DNA from: Pantoea rodasii
Lineage (GTDB): Bacteria > Pseudomonadota > Gammaproteobacteria > Enterobacterales > Enterobacteriaceae
NCBI RefSeq assembly: GCF_002095465.1
Contig: NZ_MLFP01000017.1
Coordinates: forward strand, 1 to 64,000
Direction: 5' to 3'
DNA: 64,000 nt
The notes beneath the pieces were generated by a model. That model was not told the origin of the DNA. It saw only the letters and a program-made list of their open reading frames with translations, and did not search any database. Below are positions 51,369 to 64,000 of the stretch, one piece after another (positions within the stretch are counted from its first letter, which is position 1; each line of letters begins with the position of its first letter). The position numbers were made by a program, and so were the translations under genes.

Positions 51369-51591
51369 CGTAAGTGCCTATCCTGACAGAAGCATATCGA
51401 TATGACATTTTGATTTGTTATACAAATTATTACCGTGCTAATTATCTGGGCATCTATGCAAATTGAAATGACACACTGATTACAGTAAATGATCGCGATC
51501 ACAAAAATTAGGTTATAAGCGATCGAAATTAGTTATTTATTGGTTATATAAGCGCTTTGCTATGGTGAGAAAAAACCCTTAAGGACTCATC

Positions 51592-52539
51592 ATGCAAACA
51601 AAAATTCCTGCTCTCAGCGCGTTAGCCCTGAGCTTTGGCCTGCTTTCTGCGCACGCTTTCGCTGCCAATCCAGAAACCGTGACCATTGGCTATCAGAAAG
51701 CCAACATTTTCGCGCTGTTGAAATACCGCGGCACGCTGGATGAAACCTTCAAGAAGGAAGGGATCAACATCCGATGGGTCGAATTCCCCGCAGGCCCGCA
51801 GATGCTGGAAGGGTTAAACGTGGGCAGCATTGATTTGGCCGCCACCGGCGATGCACCGCCCGCCTTCGCACAGGCCGCCAAAGCGGACTTGATTTACCTC
51901 GGTCACTCCCCTGCTAACCCCAAAACTGAAGCGATCGTGGTACCTAAAGATTCATCGATTAAGAGTGTGGCAGATCTGAAAGGCAAGCGTGTGGGTCTGA
52001 ACAAGGGATCTGACGTGAACTACTTGCTGGTGAAAGCGCTGGAAGATGCGGGCCTGAATTATAAAGATGTGAAACCCGTTTACCTGCCGCCAGCGGATGC
52101 GCGAGCTGCCTTCCAGAAAGGCGCGATTGATGCGTGGGTGATTTGGGATCCGTTCCTTGCCGAAGTCGAAGCCAATGCTGATGCGCGTGAAATCCGCAAC
52201 GCAGAAGGCCTGGTGCCGCATTACACCTTCTATCTTGCCAGCCGTCCCTTCGCTGAGGGTCATCCCGACACCGCTAAGCAAGTCGTGGATGAATTGAGTA
52301 AGTTGAGCGAGTGGGCAAATGCCAATCAGGGTGAGGCCGCCGCGATTTTGTCGAAATCGACTGGATTGGATAAAGCGATTTGGCAGACGACATTGAAACG
52401 CCTGCCGTATGGTGCCACGCGCATGACGCCAAAGGTGTTTGATGAACAGCAGGCGCTGGCGGATACCTTTACCCGCGTCGGGCTGCTGCCGGTGAAAGTG
52501 GATGTGCGCAGTGCGACCTGGTCGCTGGATAAGAAGTAA
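51592..52539 (+). CDS. ssuA: Aliphatic sulfonate binding protein SsuA
   Basis: A 315-aa periplasmic protein with a clear signal peptide (SALALSFGLLSAHAFA) and the SsuA pattern: TIGYQKANIFALLK, VEFPAGPQMLEGLNVG, PADARAAFQKGAIDAWVIWDPF. It should bind alkanesulfonates for an SsuBC importer, but no ssuB or ssuC lies next to it here. AAGG is upstream of ATG and a strong terminator follows. The domain fused to the sigma54 activator at the right end of the window is its close relative. Confidence 0.9.
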   Translation: MQTKIPALSALALSFGLLSAHAFAANPETVTIGYQKANIFALLKYRGTLDETFKKEGINIRWVEFPAGPQMLEGLNVGSIDLAATGDAPPAFAQAAKADLIYLGHSPANPKTEAIVVPKDSSIKSVADLKGKRVGLNKGSDVNYLLVKALEDAGLNYKDVKPVYLPPADARAAFQKGAIDAWVIWDPFLAEVEANADAREIRNAEGLVPHYTFYLASRPFAEGHPDTAKQVVDELSKLSEWANANQGEAAAILSKSTGLDKAIWQTTLKRLPYGATRMTPKVFDEQQALADTFTRVGLLPVKVDVRSATWSLDKK

Positions 52540-52582: not shown

Positions 52583-53797
52583 TTAACCTTCCCCGCGCCC
52601 AATCTGCCAAATCCCGGTCGGCGGCGTGCCGCTGACCTTCCAGCCACCAATATCGCGTGCTTTATAAATCACTGGATTGTGCGACGACACGGTACGGGCA
52701 TTGCGCCAGTGGCGATCCAGCGCTTTGCTGATACGCGTATCCGATGCGCCAAGCGCGTTAAACAACTCAGTCGCGGCACGCGGCACCAGTTCGCTGGCAA
52801 TCACCTGCGCCTGGCCCGCTTCAGCTTCTGCCAGCGCATTCACTGCCAGAAGTTGCGCTTCGTCGCTGCTTAAGTGCGCTTCATACGCTGATTGCAGTGA
52901 ATGTGTTGCGCGGATCACCGTGGCTTCCACCGCAAACGCCAGGCTGGTAATTTCGCCAATCACCTGTAGCACTTGTGCATCCTGACGCGATGCATCGCCG
53001 TTGCCGTGGCTGTAAATACGATGGCGCGCGGCCACCGCCCGTGCGCCATCTCGCGCCACCGCACGTCCAATACCTGCCAGCGTTGCTAACAGCACGTGTT
53101 GATAGAACGCGGTTTGATAACGGAAACGCGTAGCAAAATCGAAAACGTGTTCCTGCTCGACGTGCGCGTTGTCGAACCGCGTGGTGCCGCTGCCGGTTAA
53201 GCGCTGTCCAAACCCATCCCAGTCGTCCTCACGCGTCACACCAGGTTGGTGAGTACTTACCAGAGCGATGACATCGCCCTGATTGTCGTTGCGCCGGGCA
53301 TAAACATCGATCCAGTCGGCGTATAAAGTGCCGGTGCTGTAAAACTTCTCGCCGCTGAGCGTCCAGCCATTTGTGGCTGGCGTGACGCGAGTGATCACAT
53401 CACCGAGCTTCACCGTGCCAATTTCCGTCCAGCCGCTGCCTACCAGCTCGCCATCGATAAAGCGGCGGAACCAGCGAGCACGCTCTGCGCTGTCTGGCTG
53501 GTTGAGGCGGTCTTCCACAAATGCGAAGTGCGCACGCAGCGCCTGCGGCAGGTTGGAATCAGCTTCCGCCAGTTCTGTCAGCAGTTGGAACAACTGCGGC
53601 AGCGATGCACCCCATCCGCCCTGCTCTTTTGGGATACGTACGGTGCCAAAGCCCGCTTCTTTTAACCAGGTTATCGCTTCATGGGGCAACGTGCGACTAC
53701 GTTCGCGTTCCACTGCGCCTTCCGCAATGCGGTCAAACAGCGGGCGGAAGTGCGCGGCCAGCGCAGCATAATCGGTGCCTGTAGAAAGTTGGCTCAT
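52583..53797 (-). CDS. SfnB/DszC-like acyl-CoA-dehydrogenase-fold oxidoreductase
   Basis: A 404-aa flavoprotein from ATG 53797 (AGGAG six bases upstream). It has the acyl-CoA dehydrogenase fold: N-terminal helical domain (FGTVRIPKEQGGWGAS), central beta domain with KFYSTGTLYADW, and the C-terminal helical pair. The SfnB/DszC branch uses reduced flavin for sulfur acquisition from organosulfur compounds. It is the second gene after the MFS gene, nearly overlapping it, and lies in the organosulfur region. Confidence 0.87.
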   Translation of the reverse strand: MSQLSTGTDYAALAAHFRPLFDRIAEGAVERERSRTLPHEAITWLKEAGFGTVRIPKEQGGWGASLPQLFQLLTELAEADSNLPQALRAHFAFVEDRLNQPDSAERARWFRRFIDGELVGSGWTEIGTVKLGDVITRVTPATNGWTLSGEKFYSTGTLYADWIDVYARRNDNQGDVIALVSTHQPGVTREDDWDGFGQRLTGSGTTRFDNAHVEQEHVFDFATRFRYQTAFYQHVLLATLAGIGRAVARDGARAVAARHRIYSHGNGDASRQDAQVLQVIGEITSLAFAVEATVIRATHSLQSAYEAHLSSDEAQLLAVNALAEAEAGQAQVIASELVPRAATELFNALGASDTRISKALDRHWRNARTVSSHNPVIYKARDIGGWKVSGTPPTGIWQIGRGEG

Positions 53798-53799
53798 AA

Positions 53800-55233
53800 T
53801 CACTCCTGATGAGAAAGATCGTCGATGTCGTGGCGCGTCGGTTCATGGCGCACCGCAAGCAGGAAGAAGATCGGGATAATGGCAGCAAGCGACACCACCC
53901 AGAACATATTGGTGCCCAGCGCGGCCTGCAGAATCGGCAGAATAAACAGCGCTAATGCACTGCCCACACCGGAAAGCGCGCGGCTGAAACCAACGCCCGT
54001 TGCGCGAATAGAGGTTGGATAAGACAGTGCCGGATAGACCATCAACTGCGCGCCCGGTCCGAAACCTTCTGCAAACAACCACAAGCCCAGCATCAGTATC
54101 GCAAACACAATCCCTGCGATGGCTTCGGGATGACCAATCATCGCCAGGGCAATCAACGCAAAGAACTGCAAAGCAAAGCCGGCGATGGCAACGTGACGCG
54201 ACGGATATTTCCACGCCAGACGCATACCCAACAATCCACCGGTAAAGGCAAACAGCGCATTCAGGCCCAACGACGCGGAGATAGTTTCAAACACCCCGGC
54301 ACCGAGGAACTGCGCGAGGATCGAGGGCAGGAAGAAAGCGATCGCGGTGTATTCAAACGAGATACAGATGTTCATCACGCCTGCCACGATGGTGCGTTCA
54401 CGCCAGGGTTTCTGGAACAACACGCGGAAACTCACTTTCGGTGCCGCTTCTGCGGGAGGTGCTTCGGGTTCCGCCTCATGCGCATGAATGCCGTAAGAGT
54501 CTCGCAAAATACGCACTGCGGATTTCAGATCGCCCTGATTAGCCGCCCATAACGGCGATTCGTTCATGAACTTGCTGCGCACCGCGATGATCAACAATGC
54601 GGGAACGGCACCGAACAGCAGCGATGCGCGCCACAACCAATCGAGGTGATCTTTAGGCAATAGGAAGTAGAGACCGAAGATCAGCAGGAAGCACACCGTA
54701 GATGCGGCGTACCACATTGGGCACCATGCAGCGAGTCGCGCGGCTTTGTTGCCTTTGCCGGCGAATTTCGAAAACTCCGCCAGGTAAGACATTGCCACCG
54801 GCAAGTCGATGCCTACGCCAATCCCCATCAGGAAGCGCGCGCCTATCAACACCCAAACGTTGGGCGCTAATCCTGCTGCGATAGCGGATACCACGAAGAA
54901 CAGCATGTCCGCCATAAACACTGAGTAGCGACCATATTTGTCGGTGAGCCAGCCCCCAATCAAATTGCCCACAATGGTGCCCACCATGATTGAGGAGGTT
55001 ACCAGCCCGGTGATGAACGGTGAAATCTGGAACTCGCGTACCACATCGTCAATCCCGTAGGAGAGCGTGGTGAGATCGTAGGCATCAAGAAAGACGCCGC
55101 CGAGCGCGAGGAACACAATCATGCGCGCATAATTGTTTTTGTCACTGCGGGTGTTGATCAGCCTTGCCACATCACTGACCGAACGTACCGGTTCAGACAC
55201 CGGTAAGGTGTTTTCTAAAGGAACGGAACTCAT
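53800..55233 (-). CDS. MFS transporter, probably for an organosulfur or aromatic substrate
   Basis: A 477-aa protein with 12 spans and the MFS motif GGWLTDKYGRYSVF between spans 2 and 3. The layout resembles aromatic-acid/phosphate-type symporters (LDAYDLTTLSYGIDDV at span 1). It precedes the SfnB-like gene in the same unit, so it may supply that enzyme. A terminator separates it from the ABC operon upstream. Confidence 0.85.
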   Translation of the reverse strand: MSSVPLENTLPVSEPVRSVSDVARLINTRSDKNNYARMIVFLALGGVFLDAYDLTTLSYGIDDVVREFQISPFITGLVTSSIMVGTIVGNLIGGWLTDKYGRYSVFMADMLFFVVSAIAAGLAPNVWVLIGARFLMGIGVGIDLPVAMSYLAEFSKFAGKGNKAARLAAWCPMWYAASTVCFLLIFGLYFLLPKDHLDWLWRASLLFGAVPALLIIAVRSKFMNESPLWAANQGDLKSAVRILRDSYGIHAHEAEPEAPPAEAAPKVSFRVLFQKPWRERTIVAGVMNICISFEYTAIAFFLPSILAQFLGAGVFETISASLGLNALFAFTGGLLGMRLAWKYPSRHVAIAGFALQFFALIALAMIGHPEAIAGIVFAILMLGLWLFAEGFGPGAQLMVYPALSYPTSIRATGVGFSRALSGVGSALALFILPILQAALGTNMFWVVSLAAIIPIFFLLAVRHEPTRHDIDDLSHQE

Positions 55234-55408: not shown

Positions 55409-56284
55409 TTAGTCAGCAGAAACCGGCACTAACACCCCTTTCACTAACGGGTCATCGGTGGTTTTTAACCACTGCTGCACGCGAGGATCGGAGAATGCCT
55501 GCTTGAGTTTGGTGATGTTTTCCTGCTCCAGATATGGCGTGCCAATCACCAATTGCGATGCAAAAGTGCGTGGCGCCGGTGGGAACAGAATGCCCTTATC
55601 GCGGGTCACTTTTCCGGCATCAAATTGCGAAACGTAGCCGATGGCCGCATCCACCGAGTTCAGCGCGCGTGGCATGGTCAACAAATCGAGTTCTTTGAAT
55701 ACAAAGCCATGCGGATTGCCGACGATATTCTTCAGTTTGGCCGTGCGCGGTTCAACATTAGGATCGAGGGTGATCAAGCCCTGTCGCGCCAGCAGCCACA
55801 GAGCCTGCCCCTGATTAGCGCCGTCGTCCGGCACCACAATAGTTGCGCCCTGCGGCAGATCGGCGATGGATTTATAGCGATCGGAATAAACACCAAACGC
55901 CCACTGGAAGAGCGGCAGCGCCGAGGTCAGTTTGAAACCGTTCGCATCCACTACCTGCTTGAGCCACCACTGGTGCTGATACACCGTGGCGGCATACTGT
56001 CCATCAGCGACTGCGCGGTCTGCCTGTACCGGATCCTGCACGCCCACGGCTTCCAGCTTCAGGCCATAATCTGGTGCGATGTGCTCGCCGACATACTCAA
56101 TTAACTTCTGCTCACCCGCCATCGCCGGTTCAAAGTGAATCTGTAATGTGGTGCCAAAAACCACGGCCTGTGGCTGTTGGCTACGCCAGAACCAGGCAGC
56201 CGCCGCCAGCACAATGACCACTACAATCAGTAGCAGCCACGGCCAGCGCCGGGTTTTACGAAGTTCAAATTCTTGTGTTGTCAT
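55409..56284 (-). CDS. MetQ/NlpA-family binding protein with membrane anchor
   Basis: A 291-aa binding protein of the methionine-type ABC family (NlpA/MetQ). Instead of a cleaved signal or lipobox it has an N-terminal membrane anchor (RRWPWLLLIVVVIVLAAAAWFW). The binding domain has FEPAMAGEQKLIEYV, YQHQWWLKQVV and GYVSQFDAGK. It overlaps the permease gene by four bases. Beside sulfur-scavenging enzymes it probably carries a sulfur compound rather than methionine itself. Confidence 0.85.
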   Translation of the reverse strand: MTTQEFELRKTRRWPWLLLIVVVIVLAAAAWFWRSQQPQAVVFGTTLQIHFEPAMAGEQKLIEYVGEHIAPDYGLKLEAVGVQDPVQADRAVADGQYAATVYQHQWWLKQVVDANGFKLTSALPLFQWAFGVYSDRYKSIADLPQGATIVVPDDGANQGQALWLLARQGLITLDPNVEPRTAKLKNIVGNPHGFVFKELDLLTMPRALNSVDAAIGYVSQFDAGKVTRDKGILFPPAPRTFASQLVIGTPYLEQENITKLKQAFSDPRVQQWLKTTDDPLVKGVLVPVSAD

Positions 56285-56979
56285 AGCGATGTCCCCTGAG
56301 GATGGCGTAATACCGTGACCAATCGGTCACCGAGAAATTGAAGGGTTTGAATTAACGCGATCAGCACCACAATGGTGGCGATCATGATGTGGTTATCGAA
56401 ACGCTGATAGCCGTAGACCACGGCTAAATAGCCGATGCCGCCAGCGCCGATGGTTCCGGCGATGGCGGAGTACTCGATCATGGAAATCAGATTGAGGGTA
56501 ATGGCCGCCACGATGGCCGGAAGCGCTTCACTGAGCTGTGCCGAGCGGATGATCTGCCAGCGCGAACCGCCGCACACCAAACCCACCGCAGTGACTTCGC
56601 CTGGCAGTTCACGCAGCGCGTTATCCACTAAGCGACCAAAAAACGGAATGCCTGCTGTAATCATTGGCACCACGGCAGCGGGAATACCGATGGTGGTGCC
56701 AGTGAGCCAGAAAGTGAACGGGATAATCGCGGCCATCAATACCAGAAACGGCAATGAACGCCCCATGTTCACGATCCAGCTCAGTACCCGATTAACGCCA
56801 CGATGCGGAAACAATCCCCGCGTTGAGGTGTTGAACAGCACGACACCCACCACGCCGCCAAACGTCACCACGAACAGCATCACGATGCCGACCATCAACG
56901 CCGTTTCGCCCAGCGCGGGTAGCATCAACGTTGGGATTTCCAGCCATGGCGTATCCTGACTGATGACTGAGACGCTCAT
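56281..56979 (-). CDS. MetI-type ABC permease
   Basis: A 232-aa permease with five spans, with PAVVPMITAGIPFFGRLVDNAL and LINLISMIEYSAIAGTIGAGGIG typical of MetI. It overlaps the genes on both sides by four bases, so the ABC genes are translationally coupled. Confidence 0.88.
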   Translation of the reverse strand: MSVSVISQDTPWLEIPTLMLPALGETALMVGIVMLFVVTFGGVVGVVLFNTSTRGLFPHRGVNRVLSWIVNMGRSLPFLVLMAAIIPFTFWLTGTTIGIPAAVVPMITAGIPFFGRLVDNALRELPGEVTAVGLVCGGSRWQIIRSAQLSEALPAIVAAITLNLISMIEYSAIAGTIGAGGIGYLAVVYGYQRFDNHIMIATIVVLIALIQTLQFLGDRLVTVLRHPQGTSL

Positions 56980-57995
56980 ACCGCCTCCCTTAACGGATGC
57001 ACACTGCCGGAAACGCTGGCGACCAAACCAAACTGTTCAAGCTGCGCCAGTAATCGCGCCAGCGGCACGCGTTCGTGCTGGAAATGAATTCCCACCTGCA
57101 AACGCCCGGCCTGAATGCCGTTGACCTGCTCAACGTGTGCCCCAAGCAGATCGATGTGCAGGCCATACTGCACGCTAAGGCGTGAGATCCAGTCACTGGC
57201 TACCGGAACGTCAGTGCGATAACTGAGTTGTAATATCAGTTCCGCCACGCCCGGCTGTGACGCCAGAGGAAACAGGCGCTGACCCAACACCGAATCCGGC
57301 TGCGCCAGTAATTGTTTCACCACCCCATACTGCACAATTTCCCCGTCGCGAATTTCTGCCACCGCATCCGCCGCCTGTCGTACTGCATCCATCTCGTGGG
57401 TGATCAGCACAATCGCCAGCTTGTAGTCGTCACGCAGTTTTTTCAGTAAATCCAGCACCGTTAAGGTGGCTTCAGGATCGAGACCAGATGTGGCTTCATC
57501 GGCTAGCAGCACTGAAGGGCGCAGCGCCAGTGCACGGGCAATGCCAATGCGTTGGCGCTGGCCGCCCGAAAGTTGGCCGGGAAATGCATTGGCTTTATGG
57601 CTCAGGCCGACACTCTCCAGCAATTCACCTACCCGCGCGGCAATGTCCCGCTCTACCACGCCGAGATAGCGCAAAGGCAGCGCGATGTTCTCCCAGGCAC
57701 TTTTACGTTGCAGCAATGCCGAGGATTGAAACACGGTACCAATCGAACGACGTGCACGACGCAATGCTTCGCCCTTCAGTCGCGAGAGATCGCTGCCGTT
57801 CACGCGAATACTGCCTGCGTTAGGCTGTTCCAGCAGGCTCATACATTTTGCCAGCGTGGATTTTCCCGCGCCGCTTGGCCCGACAACTGCCGTGATATTG
57901 GCCTGCGGGACCTGTAAGTTGATGGCTTTCAGCACCTCGGTGACGCGCCCGTCAGCGGTGCGGTAGTGCTTACTTAGCTGGTCAATTTCAATCAT
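56976..57995 (-). CDS. MetN-type ABC ATPase with NIL domain
   Basis: A 339-aa ATPase. Walker A GPSGAGKST, signature LSGGQRQRIGIARAL, Walker B VLLADEATSGLDPE and H-loop LITHEMD are intact, and a C-terminal NIL domain (about residues 265-330) matches MetN, where it senses methionine for trans-inhibition. Here it may sense the imported sulfur compound. Its start overlaps the monooxygenase stop. Confidence 0.9.
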   Translation of the reverse strand: MIEIDQLSKHYRTADGRVTEVLKAINLQVPQANITAVVGPSGAGKSTLAKCMSLLEQPNAGSIRVNGSDLSRLKGEALRRARRSIGTVFQSSALLQRKSAWENIALPLRYLGVVERDIAARVGELLESVGLSHKANAFPGQLSGGQRQRIGIARALALRPSVLLADEATSGLDPEATLTVLDLLKKLRDDYKLAIVLITHEMDAVRQAADAVAEIRDGEIVQYGVVKQLLAQPDSVLGQRLFPLASQPGVAELILQLSYRTDVPVASDWISRLSVQYGLHIDLLGAHVEQVNGIQAGRLQVGIHFQHERVPLARLLAQLEQFGLVASVSGSVHPLREAV

Positions 57996-59386
57996 ATGAC
58001 CTCCGGCAATACCGTACTTTTCACCCGATAGCCAACGCCTGGATGCGGTGCGGTTAACTGTGGTCCGGCGTTAAATAACTTCTCGCGCAGCGTGCCGCTG
58101 GCATACTCCTTCTTGTAGACGCCGCGCTTTTGCAGCTCAGGGATCAGCAGTTCAACCACATCCTCAAAGGTTTCATGCGTCAATGCGTAGGCGAGGTTGA
58201 AGCCATCTACATCGGTATCCTCAACCCAGCTTTGCAGTTCGTCGGCTACGGTTTCTGCACTACCCACAATCAGTGGACCAAAACCACCAATACCGACCCA
58301 ATCCGCCAGCGCTTTTACCGTCCATTGACGATCGGGATCGGCGGTAGAGAAGGTTTCCACTGCCGATTGAATCGCGTTGGTGTGCAGATACTTCAGCACT
58401 TGATCCGGCTGATATTGACCGAAGTCGATACCGGTCCAGCCTGAGACCAGCGCCAGTGCCCCTTCGTAGCTGACGTAGCTTTGATACTCTTTCCACTTCG
58501 CCTGCGCCGCGGCATCGGTTTCGCCGACGATGACCGTTTGCAGATTGAAAATCAGGATGCTGCGCGGATCGCGTCCCGCCTCTTCTGCACGGCGACGAAT
58601 ATCCGCAACGGTTTTCTTTAGCAGTACTTTTGACGGTGCCGCAACAAACACGCATTCCGCATGCTCGGCTGCAAACTGTTTACCACGGCTCGATGCGCCC
58701 GCCTGATACAGCACCGGCGTTCGTTGCGGTGACGGCTCGCACAGGTGAATACCCGGAACGTTGAAGAAGGTGCCCTGATGATTAATCGGATGGATTTTGC
58801 GTGGGTCGCTGAAGATGCGTCGCTCACGATCGCGCAACACGGCATCCTGTTCCCAGCTGCCTTCCAGTAGCTTATACACTACCTGCAAATATTCATCGGC
58901 GTAGTCGTAGCGGCTGTCGTGATCGCTCTGCGCCTGATGGCCAATATTGCGCGCGCCACTTTCCAGGTAAGAGGTCACGATGTTCCAGCCAATGCGCCCT
59001 TTAGTCAGGTGATCGAGCGTCGATAAACGACGTGCAAACGGATAAGGATGTTCAAACGAGAGCGATGCGGTGAGACCAAAGCCAAGATGCTCGGTCACCA
59101 GCGCCATCGGGGTGATCAACGCCAGCGGATCGTTGACCGGCACCTGCGTCGCCTGACGAATCGCGGCATCGCCGTTACCGTTCAGCACATCGTAAATCCC
59201 TAGCACGTCCGCAATAAACAGGCCGTCAAACTTGCCGCGTTCCAGCAGGCGTGCCAGATCAACCCAATATTCGAGGTCTTTGTATTGCCAGGAACGGTCA
59301 CGTGGATGAGCCCACAGACCGGGTGACTGGTGTCCGACACAGTTCATATCAAAGGCATTCAAGCGAATTTCACGTTGCGATGGCAT
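57992..59386 (-). CDS. NtaA/SnaA/DszA-family FMN-dependent monooxygenase
   Basis: A 464-aa flavin-dependent oxygenase, start ATG 59386 with GGAG upstream rather than 59398. Typical segments: LFIADVLGIYDVLNGNGDAAIR, TASLSFEHPYPFARRLSTLDHLT, GRIGWNIVTSYLESGARN and QAGASSRGKQFAAEHAECVFV. DszA/SfnG relatives use FMNH2 to cleave C-S bonds in sulfones. Reduced flavin must come from elsewhere, since no SsuE-type reductase gene is in view. Confidence 0.9.
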   Translation of the reverse strand: MPSQREIRLNAFDMNCVGHQSPGLWAHPRDRSWQYKDLEYWVDLARLLERGKFDGLFIADVLGIYDVLNGNGDAAIRQATQVPVNDPLALITPMALVTEHLGFGLTASLSFEHPYPFARRLSTLDHLTKGRIGWNIVTSYLESGARNIGHQAQSDHDSRYDYADEYLQVVYKLLEGSWEQDAVLRDRERRIFSDPRKIHPINHQGTFFNVPGIHLCEPSPQRTPVLYQAGASSRGKQFAAEHAECVFVAAPSKVLLKKTVADIRRRAEEAGRDPRSILIFNLQTVIVGETDAAAQAKWKEYQSYVSYEGALALVSGWTGIDFGQYQPDQVLKYLHTNAIQSAVETFSTADPDRQWTVKALADWVGIGGFGPLIVGSAETVADELQSWVEDTDVDGFNLAYALTHETFEDVVELLIPELQKRGVYKKEYASGTLREKLFNAGPQLTAPHPGVGYRVKSTVLPEVI

Positions 59387-59461
59387 AGCAATCTCCATAG
59401 CGAGGCCGTGATCGTGCGACGACCCGGCGTTCGTTAGTGTGTTTTTAGGATGTTTGAGAGA

Positions 59462-60868
59462 TTAAGAAGCGTAAGGGCGACATCGCTCGTCGTGAGCGAT
59501 ATGCAGTTCCTTGAGAATTTGCTGAGCAACGGCAGCGGCGTGATCGGCAACCTGTGGCAGACCCATCAACTCACCGAAACGCGCACGCGCGGCGGGACCG
59601 ACCACTAACAGGCGAGCGTTGGGCTGGCCTTGCGAGTCAAGTGCGTGGGATTCCAGGTCCACGTCAAGACCAAAACCGAGCGAGTCGCCACGAATCAGGC
59701 CTTGTTCACTCAGCGAACGCAATAGCGGCTGGCTTTGCGTCAGGGCATCGTGTCCTGGCCCCGTCGTGACAATCAGGTGATCGAGCAGACGGGTTTCCGT
59801 TTCTCCCTGGCGCGTGCGCAGGATGATTACTAGCTGATGGCCCTGTGCGGTAATGGCGTGCAGTCTGGCTGCCAGCACCTGCAAACTGCCCTGCTGCTGC
59901 CGTCTGGTGATTTCCGCAGACACCTGCGGCGCGATGCGATAACGATGCACATCCCACCACGAACGCAGATGACGCACAAAGCGCTGCTGCTCGCGCAGCG
60001 GCAACGATTGCCAGATGGTTTGACCCTGTGCGCGTACGTCATCCAGCACGCGCTGCCAGGGTAATTGTTGCAGTGCCGCACGGGCAACCTCATCGCGGAT
60101 GTGATGCAGCCACAGACGCACCCCAGGGGCGTTCTGAGGCGCTAACGTCCATTCAGGCCACTCACCCGTGAGATTGGCACGTGAGAGCTGCCCACGGCGT
60201 GAGAAAGCGGTTAATGGGCCTTGATGGTGGCGGGTGCCTAAAGAGGCGACCACATCCGCCATACTCAGACCCGTTCCCATGATGGCCACGGCAGCGTCAG
60301 GTTCAATCGCATCCAGCACGCCGGGCTGCCACGGATTGGCAATCAGCGCCGGATGCTGCGCGAAGGGCTGCAACGCGCGCGGCAATGACGGTGGCGGGTG
60401 ACTGATGGCTAACGCCAGCACATCGCCCTGCAACATCTCGCCATTGCTGAGTAACAGCTGTTGCCCTTCCCAGGCCGCGGCGCTAGCCTGAACGTGCCGT
60501 AGCTGAACTTGCGGATGCTGTTCTGCAGCGAGGGCAAACTGCTCAGCCAGATAGCGACCAAACAGACCGCGCTGTGGATAGACAGAGCCATCCGCGCAAT
60601 GGGCTACTGAATCCAGTGAACATTCTGGCTGCTGACGATACCAGCGATCAAAGGCGCCCTGTTCATCCCCGCTCAGTTGCATGCGTGATGCCGGAACATT
60701 GATGCGATGCGCTGGCTCCTGTGTGGAATACGCGACGCCGCCGCCCAGCTTCTCACGCGGTTCGACCACTGTAATCAGTAACGGCGAGGACGATTGACGC
60801 GCGAGATGAATCGCTAGCGCGGTACCACTAAATCCGCCACCCACAATAATGATGTGTGATCGTGCCAT
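59462..60868 (-). CDS. FAD/NAD(P)-binding oxidoreductase
   Basis: A 468-aa protein from ATG 60868 (AGGAGAGGG just upstream). The N-terminal dinucleotide motif is GGGFSGTALAIHLARQ and a second NAD(P)-type motif is AVAIMGTGLSMADVVASLG. It resembles the FAD-dependent 'hydroxyacylglutathione-like' lysine/ornithine N-oxygenase-like PF13454 group of unknown role. Located between two flavin monooxygenase genes, it may provide reducing power or oxidise a sulfur substrate. Confidence 0.82.
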   Translation of the reverse strand: MARSHIIIVGGGFSGTALAIHLARQSSSPLLITVVEPREKLGGGVAYSTQEPAHRINVPASRMQLSGDEQGAFDRWYRQQPECSLDSVAHCADGSVYPQRGLFGRYLAEQFALAAEQHPQVQLRHVQASAAAWEGQQLLLSNGEMLQGDVLALAISHPPPSLPRALQPFAQHPALIANPWQPGVLDAIEPDAAVAIMGTGLSMADVVASLGTRHHQGPLTAFSRRGQLSRANLTGEWPEWTLAPQNAPGVRLWLHHIRDEVARAALQQLPWQRVLDDVRAQGQTIWQSLPLREQQRFVRHLRSWWDVHRYRIAPQVSAEITRRQQQGSLQVLAARLHAITAQGHQLVIILRTRQGETETRLLDHLIVTTGPGHDALTQSQPLLRSLSEQGLIRGDSLGFGLDVDLESHALDSQGQPNARLLVVGPAARARFGELMGLPQVADHAAAVAQQILKELHIAHDERCRPYAS

Positions 60869-60882
60869 CGCCCTCTCCTGCA

Positions 60883-62055
60883 TTAGCTGGCGCTCGTCTG
60901 TTTCGTAGGACGCTTATCGCCACCAATGGTTTCGCCAAACGGCCCGGTGTTAATGGTGCGCGCACGCTGCTGCTGACCGTTTGCCAGCGGTAACAGCGGC
61001 AGCAGTAATTCTGCCACACGATGCGCCTCTTCCAGGTGCGGATATCCTGACAGGATGAAGTTGGTCACACCCAATGCCTGATATTCCCGAATGCGCTCCG
61101 CAACCTGCTCAGGGCTGCCCACCAAGGCGGTTCCTGCTCCGCCGCGCACCAGACCCACGCCTGCCCATAAGTTTGGCGCGATATAGAGATTATCGCGTGA
61201 ACCTTTGTGCAGCGCGCTCATGCGCGCCTGGCCTGCTGAGTCCATCCGTGCAAAGATCTTCTGCGCCTGCGCAATGGTGTCTTCATCCAGATGCCCGATA
61301 AGTTTCTCCGCTGCAGCTTTCGCTTCCTGTTCGGTCTCACGCACGATGACATGCAGGCGGATGCCGTATTCCAGTTTACGTCCACGAGCAGCGGCGCGTT
61401 CGCGCACTACCGCGAGTTTTTCCGCAACCTGCTCCGGCGGTTCTCCCCACGTCAGATAAGTATCGATTTGCTCAGCGGCGACATCGATGGCTGCATCAGA
61501 CGATCCACCGAAATAGAGCGGTGGGCCATTTTCCTGCACCGGAGGGAACAACACTTCAGCGCCTTCAACGTGAATATGTTGCCCTTCATAGTCAACCTTC
61601 TCTCCGCGCATTAAACGGCTGTACACATCGAGAAACTCTTTGGTCACTTCGTAGCGTTCACTGTGATTGAGGAAGATGCCATCCCCTTTGTTTTCAACCG
61701 GGTCACCGCCAGTCACCACGTTGATCAGTAAACGTCCGTCAGAAAGACGATCTAAGGTTGTCGCCATGCGCGCGGCGAGCGTCGGTGGCTGCAATCCAGG
61801 GCGCACGGCAACCAGGTAACGCAGTCGTTTGGTGATGGGCGCCAGCGCAGAGGCAACCAGCCACGAATCTTCACAGCTTTTTCCGGTGGGAATCAGCACG
61901 CCGTAGAAACCGAGATTGTCGGCAGCTAAAGCCACCTGCTGTAAGTAGGCTAAATCAACCGGACGACCGCCTTCGGTGGTGCCGAGATAGCGACCGTCAC
62001 CGTGCGTCGGGAGGAACCAGAAGACATTGATATTATTGTTTGCGGAATCGGCCAT
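60883..62055 (-). CDS. ssuD: Alkanesulfonate monooxygenase SsuD
   Basis: A 390-aa FMNH2-dependent monooxygenase very close to Escherichia coli Ssu[17 protein letters not shown] at the N-terminus, [56 protein letters not shown] and [14 protein letters not shown]. It releases sulfite from alkanesulfonates. It is the first gene of the minus-strand operon and is preceded by a near-consensus sigma54 promoter; AGGA lies nine bases before ATG. Confidence 0.93.
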
Positions 62056-62124
62056 TATGCTTTTCCTATATAACTTTATTAAAAAATGGTCATTTCAGAC
62101 TGCTTATTTAGTTATATGGCTATT

Positions 62125-62140
62125 AGCGAAAAGCGTGCCA
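62125..62140 (-). promoter_or_regulatory. Sigma54 (-24/-12) promoter of the ssuD operon
   Basis: On the minus strand the site reads TGGCACGCTTTTCGCT. The -24 element TGGCACG is perfect and the -12 element TCGCT differs from TTGCT by one base, with the correct 12-base GG-to-GC distance. Transcription would begin about 60 bases before the ssuD start. The divergent gene encodes a sigma54 activator, which agrees. Confidence 0.75.
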
Positions 62141-62203
62141 GCTTTGAATCTGGCGATTACGGCGTTATTTCAGCAGCTTAGCGTTTAAGAGGAATTTGGC
62201 ATT

Positions 62204-62284
62204 GTTGCATTGGCAACTTTCATTCCGCAGCTATTGCTGCATATGCAACTGCTTATGCTTTTTTCCTGCTGTTCACAGTGAACA
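62204..62284. promoter_or_regulatory. Upstream palindromes, candidate activator sites
   Basis: Three dyads lie 70-150 bases upstream of the sigma54 promoter: GTTGC-ATTG-GCAAC (62204-62217), GCAGC-TATT-GCTGC (62227-62240) and TGTTCAC-A-GTGAACA (62270-62284). The first two are spaced by 23 bases centre to centre, about two helical turns, as expected for cooperative sites of a sigma54 activator. Binding is inference. Confidence 0.6.
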
Positions 62285-62328
62285 ACAATGTTTAGCGTGT
62301 GATGATGCTTCTTCATGGATATCAAACT

Positions 62329-64000
62329 ATGCTCTCCACCAGCAGTCATACTGACTCGCCGCGTTTAGTCGACCCCGCTTCACTGGCATTTCAATCATTA
62401 CTCGATAAGTTTGCGCCTACCGATGCCACGGTATTAATTGTTGGCGAAACAGGGACCGGCAAAGAGGTGGTTGCGCGATATTTGCATCATCATAGCCAAC
62501 GGCGCCACGGACCTTTTCTGGCAGTGAACTGCGGTGCACTGACCGAAAGCCTTGCCGAAGCTGAACTCTTTGGTCATGAGAAAGGGGCATTCACCGGCGC
62601 GACACAGGCCCATCCCGGCTGGTTTGAATCCGCGCAGGGCGGCACGCTGTTGCTGGATGAGATTGGTGAGTTGAGCCTGTCATTGCAGGTCAAGTTGCTG
62701 CGGGTGTTGCAGGAACGTGAGATTACGCGAGTGGGATCGCGCAAGCCGATCAAAGTGGATGTGCGCGTCATTGCTGCTACGCATGTCGATTTAGCGCAGG
62801 CGATACGCGAGCGACGTTTTAGGGAAGATCTGTTCTACCGTCTTAACATCGCCGTAGTACCACTGCCGCCGCTGCGCCAACGCCGCGATGATATCCCGCT
62901 GCTGGCCCAACATTTCCTTTCGCTTTATGCGCGGCGCTTAGGAAGACCCGCACGCCGCCTGTCACCTGATGCGCTGGAAGCATTGCTGGAGTACAGCTGG
63001 CCGGGCAATATTCGTGAATTAGAAAACACCCTGCACAATGCGGTACTCCTGAGCCGAGAAGAAACGCTGACGCCTGCCCAGTTGCGGCTGGCTGTTTACA
63101 ATGAACAAGGGTTTAGTTCGAGTGTGGACTCAACGCTGGATAGCTTTCTGCGCCAGCAACTCTCAAGCGAACCCCATCAACTTTTTGACCGCGTCATCAG
63201 CAGTCTGATTACTAATGCGCTCGAACTCACTGAGCAGAATCAAACACAAGCCGCTACGCTGCTGGGTATCAGCCGCCATACATTACGTACTCATCTTGCT
63301 CATCAAGGTATGATCAAAGGCCGGCGCAAAACTGCCAGCCATGCTGTGGTGGGATCGGGTTCGACGCACAGTCAGGAGCGTGAACTGCGTATTGGCTATC
63401 AAAAGTTTGGTAATCTCGGCGTACTTAAAGCGCGTCAAAGCCTTGAACAATGCTTTGCACAGCAGGGCGTCAGCGTGCTGTGGAGTGAGTTTCCAGCCGG
63501 GCCTCAACTGCTCTACGCATTGCAAAATAACGAGATCGATTTCGGCACCACCGGTGAAGTCCCGCCAATTTTCGCTCAAGCCAGCGGTAATGCTGTCACC
63601 TACATCGCGTGGGAACCTCCAGCACCCAGCAGCGTGGGCATCGTTGTGCCGCGAGACAGCGATATTCACAGCGTTGCCGATCTTCGTGGCAAGCGGGTTT
63701 CGGTCAACAAAGGCTCTAACGTTCACTGGCTACTGCTGCAATTGCTGGAAGAGGCAGGTATTGCTCTCGACGAGCTTAAGGTGGTGTATGCACCGCCTAA
63801 ATATCCGCTCACCGCCAGTGATTATCTTGCTGTCGATGCGTGGATGATGTGGGACCCTTTGCTTAGTGCAGCAGAATCCAATCCTGACTTGCGTGTGGTT
63901 GCTAACGGCGAAGGACGTGTGCGCAATCACCAGTTCTATCTGGCGCGGCGTGCTTATGTTGAGCAGCACGATGATGTTGTCCAGCAGCTGGTAGAAAGAT
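62329..64000 (+). CDS. Sigma54 activator fused to an SsuA-like sulfonate-binding domain (partial)
   Basis: The frame is open from 62329 to the window end (557 residues). Residues about 15-250 form a sigma54 AAA+ domain with no N-terminal sensor: Walker A GETGTGKE (39-46), sigma54 contact GAFTGA (86-91), Walker B LLLDEIGE (107-114). A Fis-type HTH follows at about 305-326 ([19 protein letters not shown]). After a linker of about 22 residues the frame continues into an SsuA domain from about 352 ([28 protein letters not shown]), close to the SsuA at 51592, without a signal peptide. Alternative starts are GTG 62299 and ATG 62302/62305; no clear ribosome site decides. Likely a cytoplasmic organosulfur sensor for the divergent ssuD operon. 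Confidence 0.88.

Follow-up and report, generated by a model that had tools for sequence, protein, structure and literature searches.

A conserved sigma54 promoter and enhancer pair between ssuD and the gene for a predicted activator with an SsuA-family domain in Pantoea rodasii

The DNA analysed here (the window) is a stretch of 64,000 nucleotides of Pantoea rodasii contig NZ_MLFP01000017.1, in which an ssuD operon and the gene for a predicted sigma54 activator diverge from a common control region (Table 1). The operon opens a collinear cluster of oxidoreductase and transporter genes that ends at the reading frames for the MFS transporter and the SfnB/DszC-like protein. The stand-alone SsuA-family protein reads KGSD in place of the KGSS of E. 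coli SsuA, so that its pocket too may differ from those of the alkanesulfonate binders studied; neither a strict match to the enhancer dyad (UAS) nor one to the sigma54 pattern described below was found in the start region of its gene. Genes for ParB, ParA and a Rep3 initiator adjoin the activator gene downstream (L014:12711-17580) on this contig of 110,419 bases, which is therefore probably a plasmid. A separate ssuEADCB operon is located on another contig of the same genome (C5), and within 9 kb around it no strict UAS and no TGGCAY-N7-GC were found. The ssuD of the window is therefore a second, accessory ssuD rather than part of an E. coli-type operon that has been rewired. By reading of the open frames, the genome also holds a second organosulfur island (C3:178000-197000; L230), which encodes luciferase-like monooxygenases, proteins of the acyl-CoA-dehydrogenase fold and ABC transporters of the sugar type. 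A separate activator of the AAA+/HTH type in it shares 51% identity with the fused one; a twin UAS pair was not found in this island.

Table 1. Genes and control elements of the ssuD locus (positions in the window unless stated otherwise).
Feature	Position	Strand	Basis or remark
Fused activator, 653 aa	62299..64000, on to ~64260 of contig (L014:10300-12261)	+	ORF and profile matches
Third palindrome TGCTGTTCACAGTGAACAACA (TGCTGTTCAC-A-GTGAACAACA)	62267..62287	.	exists; not generally conserved
UAS1, distal enhancer dyad GCTGCATATGCAAC	62236..62249	.	<=1 mismatch to GYTGCN4GCRRC in 57/58 loci
UAS2, proximal enhancer dyad GTTGCATTGGCAAC	62204..62217	.	<=1 mismatch to GYTGCN4GCRRC in 55/58 loci
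IHF-like site TAAGCTGCTGAAA	62168..62180	-	two mismatches to YAANNNNTTGATW in window copy
-24/-12 sigma54 element TGGCACGCTTTTCGCT, ssuD operon	62125..62140	-	pattern match; position conserved in 58/58 loci
Leader element ATATAACTAAA at predicted transcription start	62107..62117	-	TATAAC in 58/58 loci
Second leader element ATAAAGTTATATAGGAAA with likely ribosome-binding site	62062..62079	-	GTTATA, invariant in 58/58 loci
ssuD, FMNH2-dependent alkanesulfonate monooxygenase, first gene of operon	60883..62055	-	TIGR03565 607.4 bits, cut-off 518.2
FAD/NAD(P)-binding oxidoreductase	59462..60883	-	PF13454; no NCBIfam match at 1e-5
NtaA/DmoA-family FMN-dependent monooxygenase	57992..59398	-	TIGR03860 574.3 bits, cut-off 279.7
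MetN-, MetI-, MetQ-like ABC transporter, three ORFs	55409..57995	-	below curated NCBIfam methionine-transporter cut-offs
MFS transporter and SfnB/DszC-like acyl-CoA-dehydrogenase-fold oxidoreductase, two ORFs	52583..55233	-	TIGR04022 253.2 bits, below cut-off 430.9
Stand-alone SsuA-family substrate-binding protein, far cluster end	51592..52539	+	NF008588 311.5 bits, cut-off 299

The activator, the translation of which may begin at the ATG at 62329 instead of at 62299, comprises a sigma54-interaction AAA+ domain (residues 32-185), a lid, an HTH_8 domain (residues 303-330) and an SsuA-family part (approximately residues 356-647), as delimited with Pfam and NCBIfam. The last of these scores 189 bits with TIGR01728, above the cut-off of 163.5, and 250.5 bits with NF008588, below the cut-off of 299; it aligns end to end with the solved SsuA of X. 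citri (3e4r; E 1.5e-58) and likewise with E. coli SsuA (2x26). On sequence grounds the C-terminal part is thus an SsuA-like fold, an assignment that does not imply a ligand. Fused proteins from other genomes were aligned in 64 rows, which represent 63 fusions because the protein of the window stands twice. The residues of Walker A, the GAFTGA region and Walker B are nearly invariant among the 63 and the HTH is highly conserved. These are the features of an enhancer-binding protein, namely an AAA+ domain that has the Walker A, Walker B and GAFTGA motifs, and an HTH_8 domain accompanied by conserved upstream dyads, and the protein is predicted to be one. Ligand-contact residues of X. citri SsuA are named in passages of PMC3839906. 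The equivalents of Gln36, Gly68, Gly86 and Trp185 are invariant in 63/63 fusions, and the equivalent of Ser141 is Asn in every one of them, so that the sulfonate-contact set (Gln36, Gly68, Gly86 and Ser141), as far as those passages define it, is kept at three positions and changed at the fourth. This substitution may indicate a ligand other than a typical alkanesulfonate, or another role of the domain.

Fusions were called at E <=1e-130. They were matched in 37 of 61 Pantoea genomes (three of the 37 with an in-frame stop) and in 48 of 392 sampled genomes of the family, representing 21 of 154 genera. Two of these 48 matches span only part of the protein (residues 205-646 and 14-353), and three contain in-frame stops; the partial match to residues 14-353 lacks the SsuA domain, and the count becomes 20 of 154 genera when one AAA+/HTH-only match is dropped. 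Identity to the protein of the window is 71% in Klebsiella pneumoniae, 72% in Raoultella planticola and 68% in Chimaeribacter arupi, and 46-47% in fusions from Methylocystis and Azospirillum plasmids. In a sample of the order (394 genomes) the only whole-query matches among those listed were four from Pantoea. A sample of the class (369 genomes) gave no further fusion and one AAA+/HTH protein besides that of the window, and a sample of the phylum (398 genomes), searched with the Methylocystis protein, gave three from Pantoea only. Among 5426 E. coli genomes searched with blastn, none had a match spanning 80% of the activator gene as far as it lies in the window; 656 had a short match, which was hyfR in the eight listed. 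The control region was compared in 60 loci, from 31 of the 37 Pantoea genomes, 28 of 44 others of the family and Raoultella. A divergent ssuD is present in 58 of them. In the other two, both from Pantoea, ssuD is wholly gone (L057) or only its ends are left (L059), and both retain the whole control region and the next gene of the operon.

A near-consensus sigma54 element with the right spacing had been proposed on the minus strand before ssuD by the initial annotation, and it proved well founded. TGGCACGCTTTTCGCT (62140-62125) has the spacing GG-N10-GC and is the sole one-mismatch match anywhere in the 64 kb window to TGGCACGN4TTGCW, which we take to be the sigma54 consensus. Matches with up to three mismatches numbered 106 against a shuffle mean of 150.7, not above chance, and the window scan alone is therefore little proof of a sigma54 site. 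The comparison of loci is more telling. TGGCAY-N7-GC lies 84-86 nt ahead of the ssuD ATG in all 58 orthologous intergenic regions and has a single further occurrence in them on that strand and none on the opposite one, the chance expectation being 0.26 per 58 mononucleotide-shuffled sequences. It is present in 60/60 activator loci, 58 times before ssuD and twice before the remnant of a deleted ssuD. The mean pairwise identity of the -24/-12 block over the 58 loci is 0.80, and that of six blocks that separate the elements or lie upstream of them is 0.30-0.47; the 58 loci are related by descent, so that counts over them are not independent, and the flanks share the same history. Thinning at <70% identity leaves 28 of the 58 sequences. 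The element has its GG-N10-GC in a TGGCAY...TGC-like context, and the genome contains one match to rpoN (PF04552, 239.9 bits). On this comparative evidence we regard the sigma54 site before ssuD as real and conserved. Transcription would start at about 62114, 12 bases past the C of the -12 element and 59 nt ahead of the ssuD ATG at 62055, giving a predicted leader of about 59 nt.

Three palindromes had been noted further upstream as possible sites for an enhancer-binding protein. All three exist, but only two are conserved as an enhancer pair. UAS1 and UAS2 are 32 bp apart in the window; both are within one mismatch of GYTGCN4GCRRC in 54 of the 58 loci, their spacing is 32 in 46 loci, 31 in 11 and 29 in one, and the distance from the start of UAS2 to the TGG is 76-80 bp in 57 loci and 81 in the remaining one. 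The mean pairwise identities of the two proximal dyads are 0.81 and 0.77. The third palindrome, at 0.42, is at background level and was rejected as part of the module. The weak cases are L159, L074, L156 and L161; loci of the Klebsiella/Raoultella type have a poor UAS2 (three mismatches in L159, two in L074 and L156), and in K. pneumoniae L183 a second UAS within two mismatches was not found. A terminator-like match at 62204 is the UAS2 dyad itself. Comparison of the 58 loci thus strongly supports the promoter and the enhancers.

Between UAS2 and the -24 element lies an IHF-like site (62180-62168) that the initial annotation had not remarked upon. Against YAANNNNTTGATW, which we presume to be the IHF consensus, the match is perfect in nine relatives, all at the same place, and the best match lies exactly 40 nt ahead of the TGG in 50 of 58 loci. 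Sites with at most two mismatches were found in 54 loci (mononucleotide-shuffle mean 25.6, maximum 34) and with at most one mismatch in 35 (mean 3.9, maximum 10). No good IHF site was found in the Azospirillum ssuD promoter or in two P. agglomerans-type sfnG promoters that were checked.

The ssuD leader carries a further pair of elements, TATAAC and GTTATA, which was likewise absent from the initial annotation. The two are 42 bp apart in 55 of 58 leaders and 43 bp apart in three. An RNA hairpin formed by them was rejected: the mean z is -0.1, the stem is present in the minimum-energy fold in 27/58 leaders, and 141 of 200 shuffles of the window leader fold equally well. The pair is more likely to be a DNA site, and may be the operator of a second regulator that is particular to the ssuD promoter; in 18 Pantoea sfnG leaders both elements together occur in none and GTTATA occurs in four. 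GGTTATA also stands twice upstream of the stand-alone ssuA, 31 bp apart (51511 and 51542; 51511-51548 of the window), and once before the ATG of E. coli ssuE (GGTTATAAGG), and was not found ahead of the ATG of E. coli tauA.

A second occurrence of the module was found away from the ssuD locus. On contig C20 the genome encodes the dimethyl sulfone monooxygenase SfnG (TIGR04021, 592.4 bits, cut-off 382.95), the gene for which is preceded by GTTGTAATTGCAAC and GCTGCATTTGCAGC, 32 bp apart, and by TGGCACACTCGCTGCA, 78 bp after the start of GCTGCATTTGCAGC. Called at E <=1e-140 in the 61 Pantoea genomes, sfnG is present in 18 of the 37 that carry the fusion and in none of the 24 that do not (Fisher p 2e-5, a value that ignores phylogeny and shared replicons). 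One of these copies is partial; in L262 (G426 C5) the match is in two pieces with a short open frame of 272 aa, and the copy looks broken. A sigma54 element accompanied by two UAS 31-32 bp apart precedes all 18 genes; 16 of the pairs have at most two combined mismatches and two have three. With the range of placements allowed, no pair appeared in any of 300 shuffles of the upstream sequences. UAS2 lies 67-68 or 76-79 bp from the TGG in these promoters, and the distances across ssuD and sfnG promoters form two groups (76-81 and 67-70) separated by roughly one helical turn. The sfnG and activator genes are on different contigs in 10/18 genomes and share a contig, at a distance of 27-109 kb, in 8/18, and the co-occurrence may therefore partly reflect a shared replicon. 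Twin UAS pairs as such occur in 33 of the 37 Pantoea genomes with the fusion and in none of the 24 without it; as evidence this is largely trivial, most of the sites adjoining the activator gene, and the informative result is that for sfnG. Matches to the twin-UAS pattern with other spans (43, 44, 47 and 48) are GC-rich in appearance, and one of 45 nt (G404 C1) falls within a long open frame.

The module extends to distant relatives. In Azospirillum sp. B510 the msuE-sfnG and ssuD operons are both preceded by paired UAS with a spacing of 32 bp, which are followed after 69-70 bp by sigma54 elements, and Methylocystis sfnG has a UAS pair 33 bp apart and a sigma54 element 68 bp on; before the Methylocystis ssuD operon one UAS was found and a sigma54 match was not. 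Upstream of E. coli K-12 ssuE and tauA neither the sigma54 pattern nor, within one mismatch, the UAS is matched, tauA having one UAS-like sequence with two mismatches. The module was not found at the Acinetobacter and Agrobacterium sfnG loci examined. At a Burkholderia sfnG locus a sigma54 element is present together with an unfused SfnR-like protein, 53% identical over AAA+/HTH; a search within 170 bp of its gene gave no GYTGCN4GCRRC within one mismatch, and the dyads are of the TGATCAGCA type, in this one locus.

Taken together, these observations make it very probable, in our judgement, that the fused protein is a one-component sigma54 activator with an organosulfur-sensing SsuA-like domain, which would switch on ssuD and sfnG through the enhancer pair. 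In the mechanism proposed, oligomers of the activator would bind the two 14-bp dyads, some 100-130 bp upstream of the predicted start; a DNA bend, probably made by IHF at about 62174, would bring the AAA+ ring to the RNA polymerase-sigma54 complex at -24/-12, and ATP hydrolysis would open the promoter of the ssuD operon. The sfnG gene elsewhere in the genome would be driven by the same kind of control unit. The C-terminal SsuA-like domain, being cytosolic, would sense an organosulfur compound inside the cell and license the AAA+ domain. From sequence we infer the binding of the activator to the dyads, the binding of IHF, the role of the SsuA domain as the sensor, the nature of its ligand and the activating direction of the control. 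Control of ssuD by sigma54 and the adjoining activator through the dyads, as the initial annotation had suggested, is well supported by comparison, the -24/-12 element and the dyads being conserved far above their flanks. The ligand may be a sulfonate, a sulfinate or a sulfone; these are the natural candidates because, according to passages of PMC8234197, pseudomonads convert dimethyl sulfone to sulfite with SfnG, MsuC and MsuD, and because SsuD belongs by family to the alkanesulfonate monooxygenases.

The most serious competing explanation accepts the promoter and the enhancers as real and denies that the SsuA domain senses an inducer: control would be exerted through the expression level of the activator, or the domain would sense a preferred sulfur compound and act as an inhibitor. 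SfnR, the nearest functional parallel, is said to be controlled by its own expression level. Titles cited in PMC8234197 describe SfnR as CysB-regulated and sigma54-dependent. The Ser-to-Asn change in the pocket, invariant in the fusions, points in the same direction, as do the GTTATA elements at the transcription start, which suggest a second regulator. The domain is, however, complete, and four of five ligand-contact positions are invariant in 63 fusions, the alphaproteobacterial ones included, which would be unexpected for a passive appendage. We consider this explanation unlikely, although it deserves real weight. It is considerably less probable that the dyads are bound by another regulator and that the fused activator acts elsewhere. 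Six further matches to sigma54-activator domains in the genome score above 200 bits, and such a regulator might be among them; yet the dyad pair adjoins the gene of the fusion at almost every locus, Azospirillum and Methylocystis have the motif together with the fusion, sfnG with the module was found within Pantoea only in genomes bearing the fusion, and the HTH is highly conserved among fusions. Transcription of ssuD in the E. coli manner, from a sigma70 promoter controlled by CysB/Cbl, with the sigma54 match incidental, would accommodate the invariant TATAAC/GTTATA elements and the GGTTATA in the E. coli ssuE leader, but is very improbable given that the -24/-12 element and the UAS are far better conserved than their flanks across the 58 loci and recur before sfnG, and that the sole sigma70-like match in 62000-62400 equals the chance level of 1.0.

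Beyond the one-component activator that we favour, a more specific proposal can be put forward tentatively, as one that falls somewhat short of an even chance. The protein would represent a class of activators in which the sulfonate-binding protein of an ABC transporter has been captured as a C-terminal cytosolic sensor, its pocket re-tuned by the invariant Asn to another ligand such as a sulfone or a sulfinate. The class would govern a regulon of its own for sulfones and sulfonates, comprising ssuD and sfnG if the presence of the module is the guide, in Enterobacteriaceae and some Alphaproteobacteria, alongside Cbl/CysB, with a second conserved operator pair at the transcription start of ssuD. 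Neither the fusion nor its promoter is described in the papers that the literature searches listed, so far as titles, abstract openings and passages reveal.

In the textbook view, sulfur scavenging in enteric bacteria is governed by CysB and Cbl with sigma70, and the E. coli operons ssuEADCB and tauABCD are under this control. The window operon has the same enzyme class and the same physiological purpose; E. coli ssuE and tauA differ in having no sigma54 module upstream such as that before Pantoea ssuD. A separate and possibly substrate-specific sulfur switch is thus predicted in bacteria that include Klebsiella, Raoultella and Pantoea, and its activator might serve as a sulfonate or sulfone biosensor. 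In Pseudomonas, SfnR is the sigma54 activator of dimethyl sulfone and methanesulfonate genes. A regulatory logic close to that of SfnR had been suggested for the present locus, and the resemblance stands: like the activator as predicted here, SfnR is an AAA+ activator that depends on sigma54, has no long N-terminal regulatory domain and serves genes of the sfnG/ssuD type. The recurrence of the module before sfnG strengthens the parallel. The activator is not a plain SfnR, however, since SfnR is a stand-alone AAA+/HTH protein without a sensor domain and the activator adds a C-terminal SsuA-family domain, and its enhancer motif is other than that of the one Burkholderia SfnR-like locus. With the SsuA proteins of known structure (3e4r/3ksj/3ksx and 2x26) the domain shares a full-length match and, by the contacts named in the passages cited above, the conserved Gln, Gly, Gly and Trp of the pocket; those proteins are free and periplasmic, whereas the domain of the activator is fused behind an HTH and has Asn in place of Ser141. 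The activator also resembles the NtrC-type enhancer-binding proteins in the Walker A, Walker B and GAFTGA motifs of its AAA+ domain, its HTH_8, its paired dyads and the IHF-like site. In these proteins the usual order, as given in passages of PMC7175178, is an N-terminal regulatory domain, the AAA+ domain and a C-terminal DNA-binding domain; in the activator the putative regulatory domain comes after the DNA-binding domain. It would thus show in compact form how the binding protein of a transporter can become a transcriptional sensor, with the sensor placed behind the DNA-binding domain.
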